Positions 5,327 through 5,465 of a stretch of 5,950 bases of DNA are shown in pieces. Source of the DNA: Noviherbaspirillum sp. GTDB taxonomy: Bacteria > Pseudomonadota > Gammaproteobacteria > Burkholderiales > Burkholderiaceae. The stretch lies in NCBI GenBank assembly GCA_028292785.1, contig JAQGLQ010000346.1, positions 1 through 5,950 on the forward strand, given 5' to 3'. Position numbers and translations under genes: made by a program. Within the stretch, counting starts at the first letter, position 1. The number at the start of each line of letters is the position of its first letter. The notes under the pieces were generated by a model. It was not told the origin of the DNA and did no database searches. It saw only the letters and a list, made by a program, of their open reading frames with translations.

Positions 5327-5363
5327 AAAAAAAACCCTGGAGAAAGGGGAGGATCTCCAGGGT
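5327..5363 (-). terminator. Strong intrinsic terminator, minus strand, toward engB
   Basis: ACCCTGGAGA and TCTCCAGGGT form a perfect 10-bp stem around a 10-base loop. On the minus strand this is followed by eight uninterrupted T (plus-strand A at 5327-5334). On the plus strand AGTAACG follows, with no U-tract. It therefore stops transcription coming from the hemB side on the minus strand, where no protein gene is present; this is the main argument for a small RNA here. Confidence 0.85.
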
Positions 5364-5465
5364 AGTAACGCCTTATCGCTAATGCCACGATATGGCCCCG
5401 CTCAGGGAGGAGAAGCGGGAGGTGATTGAACACCTATTGCTGAGATAGGACCTCACCACAAAAGT
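5327..5465 (-). ncRNA. Candidate structured small RNA with anti-Shine-Dalgarno-like loops
   Basis: Read on the minus strand, four consecutive hairpins tile 5457 down to 5334. H1 (5457-5421) has an outer GGTGA/TCACC stem and an inner CCTAT/ATAGG stem. H2 (5419-5397) is CCCGCT/AGCGGG with an 11-base loop TCTCCTCCCTG. H3 (5396-5370) pairs GCC/GGC and TATCG/CGATA around one A-A mismatch. H4 (5363-5334) is a 10-bp perfect stem with loop TCCTCCCCTT, then eight T. The loops of H2 and H4 carry CU-rich, anti-Shine-Dalgarno-like sequence, the type of motif by which some small RNAs bind ribosome binding sites. No open reading frame of note lies on this strand. The 5' end is uncertain; a weak TAGAAA box (5477-5472) would start the RNA near 5465, and a TSS near 5481 is also possible. 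I do not recognise the family with certainty. The alternative is structured leader or spacer DNA for hemB, but the U-tract exists only on the minus strand. Confidence 0.6.

Follow-up and report, generated by a model that had tools for sequence, protein, structure and literature searches.

The closest described relative of the RNA reported here is ncS04 of B. cenocepacia, a 105-nt RNA seen by 3′ RACE and on a Northern blot and located between oppositely directed genes, according to the accessible text of two papers (PMC5688073, PMC4603805), both of which cite another paper that reports co-purification of ncS04 with Hfq. By qPCR, ncS04 did not change significantly across the seven conditions of Table 2; 20-min SDS and H2O2 exposures are also listed, and short stress was largely without induction in B. 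cenocepacia, as far as the accessible part of PMC5688073 goes. Among other published CU-rich sRNAs, the S17 RNA represses at ribosome-binding sites, directly for one reporter, in the accessible text of PMC11722255, and growth effects of ncS27 are described in that of PMC5688073. For the anti-hemB family, to which ncS04 belongs, no regulator, function or proven target was found in the literature searched.

E. coli RpoE recognises a −35 box GGAACTT, and the rybB and micA promoters contain near matches to GGAACTTTT and GTCAAA, as given in the accessible portion of PMC1804206. The sigma-E-dependent sRNAs listed in such accessible sources come from gammaproteobacteria and Fusobacterium. The −35 box of meningococcal sigma-E is different, so an RpoE-box rule cannot cover all betaproteobacteria. 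A literature search, with most subscription papers outside its reach, returned no paper linking anti-hemB to RpoE. The RNA family and its Northern band are already known, and what looks new is the RpoE-type likeness of the promoter sequence in this bacterium and many of its relatives.

The window, i.e. the whole stretch of 5,950 nt analysed here, carries a GTPase gene at 4584–5291 (+) (Pfam MMR_HSR1; named engB in the earlier note) and the 5′ part of hemB at 5520–5948 (+) (Pfam ALAD, 2.1e-40), which are the convergent and divergent neighbours, respectively, of an RNA encoded on the minus strand between them. Cytochrome c, ResB and cytochrome c assembly genes (Pfam) lie farther upstream. Incidentally, an inverted repeat of 13 bp around a 4-base loop at 336–365, just 3′ of the cytochrome c assembly gene on the minus strand, is probably the terminator of that gene. 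The HemB sequence is closest to those of L002 (87% identity) and Collimonas (L001, 85%), placing the window in Oxalobacteraceae.

A covariance-model search matches Rfam anti-hemB RF02837 at 5422–5327 (−) with 57.0 bits (E 1.1e-11) against a gathering cut-off of 49.5 bits, and the RNA has the family's place beside hemB and is transcribed away from it. The RNA that the earlier note calls unannotated thus belongs to a described family, anti-hemB (RF02837). That note's reading of the segment as a minus-strand sRNA with loops complementary to Shine-Dalgarno (SD) sequences stands, but it missed both the family membership and the promoter-like boxes.

On the minus strand, 5475–5320 folds at −55 kcal/mol (z −4.13) and the predicted transcript, 5435–5327, at −46.3 (z −5.81), with 0/200 dinucleotide shuffles as stable in either case. 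The transcript folds as four adjacent hairpins, all on the minus strand: the 5′ hairpin H0 with stem AGGUG/CACCU (5420–5435), H1 with stem CCCGC/GCGGG and an anti-SD loop (5397–5419), the middle hairpin H2 (5370–5396), and the terminator H3 (5334–5363). The H3 stem has 10 bp (A5363–A5354 with T5343–T5334) around the loop TCCTCCCCTT, with eight T at 5334–5327. An extra hairpin at ~5457–5440 in the fold of the longer segment overlaps the predicted −10 box, not the predicted RNA. Three structural claims made earlier from the letters alone are confirmed here, namely the 10-bp terminator stem with eight U (5363–5327, −), the four back-to-back hairpins, and the two CU-rich anti-SD loops (5414–5402 in H1 and 5353–5344 in H3).

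Compensatory changes, for which the same note had proposed a search in the spacers of relatives, were counted in 16 sequences, made up of the window and 15 relatives of Oxalobacteraceae type. Of the 464 cells in the four helices, 93.5% are paired, compared with 40.5–52.6% for slid controls, and both partners have changed in 10 of the 29 pairs (4.0 on average in shuffles, 0/500 as high). H0 is 100% paired with 4 of its 5 pairs double-changed, H2 is paired in 86.8% of cells with 3 of 9 pairs double-changed, and H3 is paired in 93.1%. H1 gives no covariation because it is invariant in this set. The conserved, covarying H0 lies outside the Rfam model, and when 105 nt are counted back from the T run of the B. 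cenocepacia locus (L050), the RNA also extends 5′ of that model. More broadly, a perfect 5-bp H0 stem abuts H1 in 83 of 119 sequences (shuffles 23%), and six-pair H2 stems are found in 70 of the 119 (shuffles 12%). The pair counts are from the 16-sequence set and not from the broader alignments of 58 or 37 sequences; free RNAalifold, run on the 58 divergent sequences as aligned by MAFFT, gave poor structure, with hairpins misaligned and one false row (L029).

The first anti-SD loop, TTCTCCTCCCTGA in H1 (5402–5414, −), is conserved letter for letter in no fewer than 81 sequences out of the 119 for which a 5-bp H1 stem was called (121 examined), a lower bound given that the stem was called too early in 9 further rows. 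The second, TCCTCCCCTT in the terminator (5344–5353, −), was followed across relatives by its TCCCCTT, which is found in the terminator loop of 13/15 Oxalobacteraceae rows (window included) and 47/63 further rows, and in none of 22 Burkholderia/Paraburkholderia/Caballeronia, 6 Cupriavidus and 9 Comamonadaceae-like rows. This second CU-rich loop is an addition to the known picture of anti-hemB.

Upstream of the RNA, the minus strand reads GAAACT-N17-TCTCA at 5468–5441, consisting of a predicted RpoE-type −35 box (5463–5468) and, after a 17-nt spacer, a predicted −10 box (5441–5445). The pair matches GGAACT/TCTNA at 9 of 10 positions. Its weight-matrix score is 20.6, next to 8.6 for the second-best site in the window, which itself belongs to the training set of the matrix. 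Reckoned from these boxes, the RNA likely starts near 5435 and has a length of ~109 nt (5327–5435, −). The 3′ end and hairpins put forward in the earlier note are retained, while its 130–155 nt was probably too long at the 5′ side.

The motif was first spotted by eye in the spacers and scored afterwards, as GGAACT-N15-18-TCTNA over 10 positions. With spacers of 14–18 nt allowed, matches of at least 9/10 are present in 63 of 120 sequences (1.9 expected from dinucleotide shuffles) and perfect ones in 33 (0.1 expected). When near-duplicates and one false row are taken out, 62 of 102 relatives reach at least 9/10 (shuffles 0.8%), 32 of them perfectly, and 61 of these 62 sites lie between −52 and −66 relative to the loop, with one at −99. 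The gap between the loop and the start of the hemB match, on the other hand, ranges from 79 to 290 nt, so it is relative to the RNA, and not to hemB, that the boxes hold their spacing. Outside the derivation of the motif, 21 later sRNA loci were scored, of which 18 are non-duplicate; they come from the G002 family, kin of the training set. All 18 score at least 8/10 (dinucleotide shuffles 14.1%) at −56 to −61, and 7 of them at least 9/10 (shuffles 1.4%). RF02278 served as a negative control: 12 of its loci, drawn from five of these genomes (30 matches listed, 11 over cut-off), reach 7/10 at most, and many of them carry TATAGT or TATAAT instead.

The box pair is not evenly distributed. With L029 removed (119 sequences), at least 9/10 is reached by 10/15 Oxalobacteraceae including the window, 3/4 other and 49/63 further rows, and by 0/6 Cupriavidus, 0/9 Burkholderia and 1/9 Comamonadaceae-type rows. 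Paraburkholderia/Caballeronia give 0/13, 12 of which score 8. The −35 box of the named Oxalobacteraceae usually reads GAAACT or TGAACT, and no perfect score occurs among the 15 Oxalobacteraceae rows. An RpoE-type box pair is conserved at a near-constant distance upstream of the RNA in many betaproteobacteria.

These boxes bear on the strongest competing account, in which anti-hemB is a multi-target anti-SD repressor just the same, but is made constitutively or by growth phase, with the boxes being a coincidence or belonging to another ECF sigma factor. Such an account draws on the flat ncS04 level in the seven conditions and on the lack of reported SDS induction in the accessible text of PMC5688073. 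Hexamers at the −10 position also speak for it: Burkholderia rows have TATGAT and Comamonadaceae-type rows have TAAATT, and in both groups the sigma-E-type pair is poor or absent. Full sigma-70 pairs, though, are on average not above chance: at least 9/12 is found in 1/9 Burkholderia, 3/9 Comamonadaceae-type, 0/13 Paraburkholderia/Caballeronia and 0/6 Cupriavidus rows. Among the 15 Oxalobacteraceae rows, the window being one, no site scores 9/12 or more against the sigma-70 consensus, and the RpoE-type boxes are over-represented at near-constant distance in most other rows as well as in all 18 non-duplicate later loci (at least 8/10), both of which argue against constitutive synthesis. We regard this account as unlikely, though it deserves to be taken seriously.

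RpoE itself was looked for in 13 genomes, and rpoE (TIGR02939) is over cut-off in 12. With the weight matrix built from anti-hemB promoters, 7 of the 12 regions upstream of rpoE contain a site at background p<=0.015. Five of the seven share a fixed position, their −35 box lying between −78 and −81 (L092, L094, L095, L097 and L101), the L094 site having a 15-nt spacer and a weak −10. The motif is missing upstream of rpoE in the other five loci, L091 (Herbaspirillum), L096, L098, L100 and L102. The box pair upstream of rpoE supports, but does not prove, that RpoE is its reader, and the GAACT box 78–81 nt 5′ of rpoE suggests that rpoE regulates itself in genomes of Oxalobacteraceae type.

RF02837 scores above its cut-off in 11 of 17 selected genomes and, with stricter filters, in 164 out of a sample of 250 from the order; counting weaker matches as well, some of which may be other CU-rich RNAs, brings the second figure to 192. 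For synteny, 80 loci were chosen for high score, and exclusion of 14 without a TCCTCCC anchor left 66, among which L136 and L183 are misanchored. hemB is divergent within 700 nt in 54 of the 66 and engB is convergent in 54, showing that the place between engB and hemB is widely conserved. Ten of 80 hemB relatives, of Massilia/Duganella/Janthinobacterium type, have an engB-hemB gap of −6 to 124 nt without the motif, and the four-helix model has no match at E<=1 in L008, L010, L016, L019, L022, L026, L030, L033, L035 and L036. There is thus an apparent loss of anti-hemB from this spacer in the Massilia/Duganella group. Elsewhere, L032:2423-2534 and L065:2463-2572 match the four-helix model ~1.4–1.5 kb from hemB, and the RNA can therefore move off its usual neighbour. 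Paired anti-hemB matches ~180 nt apart are seen at G251:C10:720992-721257, G095:C54:28989-29256 and G050:C12:55859-56125, G251 having six matches in total. Candidatus Nitrotoga has a second, sub-threshold anti-hemB-like RNA (G017:C12:37216-37307, 37.2 bits).

The conserved place would suit an RNA working chiefly in cis, on hemB or engB, e.g. as an antisense RNA or by transcription interference. However, the RNA overlaps neither coding region, its conservation is highest in the CU-rich loop, and the distant matches in L032 and L065 do not fit a cis role, which we therefore consider quite improbable. Despite the family name, transcription of the RNA runs away from hemB, and the RNA is not expected to be antisense to that gene; antisense action on hemB was considered and is made unlikely by this geometry.

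The CU-rich loops had also led the earlier note to draw parallels with the betaproteobacterial toxic sRNAs (RF02278) and with the alphaproteobacterial CcsR/cuckoo RNAs, and the window does give a match of 28.5 bits to another alphaproteobacterial anti-SD family, ar14 (RF02344). RF02278 is rejected for having no covariance-model match in the window at E<=5, and ar14 for staying below its cut-off of 58.8 bits. The ar14 trait of three identical CCUCCUCCC motifs is absent, as the window loops are UUCUCCUCCCUGA and UCCUCCCCUU, with none in the H2 loop. CcsR/cuckoo RNAs occur as tandem copies beside a CcaF1-type gene; the window holds one RNA copy, between engB and hemB, and these traits are not visible within it. 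Separate RF02278 members, 3 to 10 matches per genome, coexist with anti-hemB over cut-off in 5 of the 6 genomes tested. Membership in RF02278 or among the ar14/CcsR RNAs has very little probability left. Collimonas (G001) has ten RF02278 matches, eight over cut-off. That the segment is only a cluster of inverted repeats without a transcript of its own can be dismissed almost entirely, since the homologue is a discrete 105-nt RNA in the accessible text of PMC5688073 and PMC4603805 and the four helices are conserved and the loop core is invariant.

As the best explanation, we favour an Oxalobacteraceae anti-hemB sRNA that is made by RpoE under envelope stress and masks ribosome-binding sites, a reading that we hold to be reasonably probable and in which the sigma dependence and the targets are what we infer. 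Upon envelope stress, RpoE holoenzyme would transcribe from ~5435 to 5327, Hfq would assist the RNA, and the two CU-rich loops would pair with SD regions of several mRNAs and block their translation. Anti-hemB would then be a betaproteobacterial counterpart of MicA and RybB, with anti-SD loops as its seeds. A wider version, for which the chances are close to even and lean slightly in its favour, has a widespread betaproteobacterial envelope-stress RNA, transcribed by RpoE and silencing a set of mRNAs with two anti-SD loops, a MicA/RybB counterpart that arose from an unrelated RNA and was later rewired off sigma-E in Burkholderia and Comamonadaceae. Because SDS is among the B. cenocepacia stresses without reported induction, our confidence was lowered a little in the Oxalobacteraceae reading and slightly more in the wider one. 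The promoter region of B. cenocepacia ncS04 differs from that of the window, and the ncS04 data give no support for stress control.

The idea of SD masking fits the published CU-rich sRNAs by analogy. Targets were sought in two ways. Start regions of 28 porins in relatives (from 30 loci; L249 was left out and one had no start codon) were compared with those of 183 control ORFs. Pairing with each of the two loops is stronger for the porins (p 0.0014 and 0.0025), and equally so with the 16S anti-SD (p 8e-5), but no residual effect is left after SD strength is taken into account (p 0.53). Porin pairing is thus explained by stronger SD sequences, leaving the classical sigma-E target class unsupported. 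Long perfect complementarity, with CAGGGAGGAGAA as target finder, gives matches in 36 of 60 genomes. In 30 loci examined, 21 are the sRNA gene itself, and only L196 and L201 have a match just 5′ of an open frame outside sRNA genes, with no visible common gene.

The conserved RpoE-type boxes offer a direct and cheap handle on when anti-hemB is made. If the proposal is true, betaproteobacteria gain a sigma-E sRNA of their own. The 5′ hairpin and the second loop would improve the family model.

Compared with B. cenocepacia ncS04 and RF02837, the window RNA shares the covariance-model match, the place at the hemB side, the H1 hairpin with its loop, the terminator and nearly the length (109 nt predicted, 105 published), whereas the RpoE-type box pair, the second CU-rich loop in the terminator and the 5′ hairpin outside the model are additions of the window. 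RF02278 RNAs (ncS03/05/27/62, with Bordetella S17 described as similar in the accessible literature) have CU-rich loops complementary to ribosome-binding sites as well, but they consist of two hairpins, measure 57–92 nt in B. cenocepacia and occur in several copies per genome. MicA and RybB differ from the window RNA in sequence and seeds. Like it, they are, in the accessible part of PMC1804206, short intergenic sRNAs flanked by conserved genes and preceded by boxes of sigma-E type. Finally, ar14/NfeR1 (RF02344) resembles the window RNA in having several hairpins with CU-rich anti-SD loops, one of them in the terminator (model alignment), but differs in its three hairpins with identical CCUCCUCCC, its RpoD-type promoter and the Hfq independence reported for NfeR1 in the accessible text of PMC10746234.
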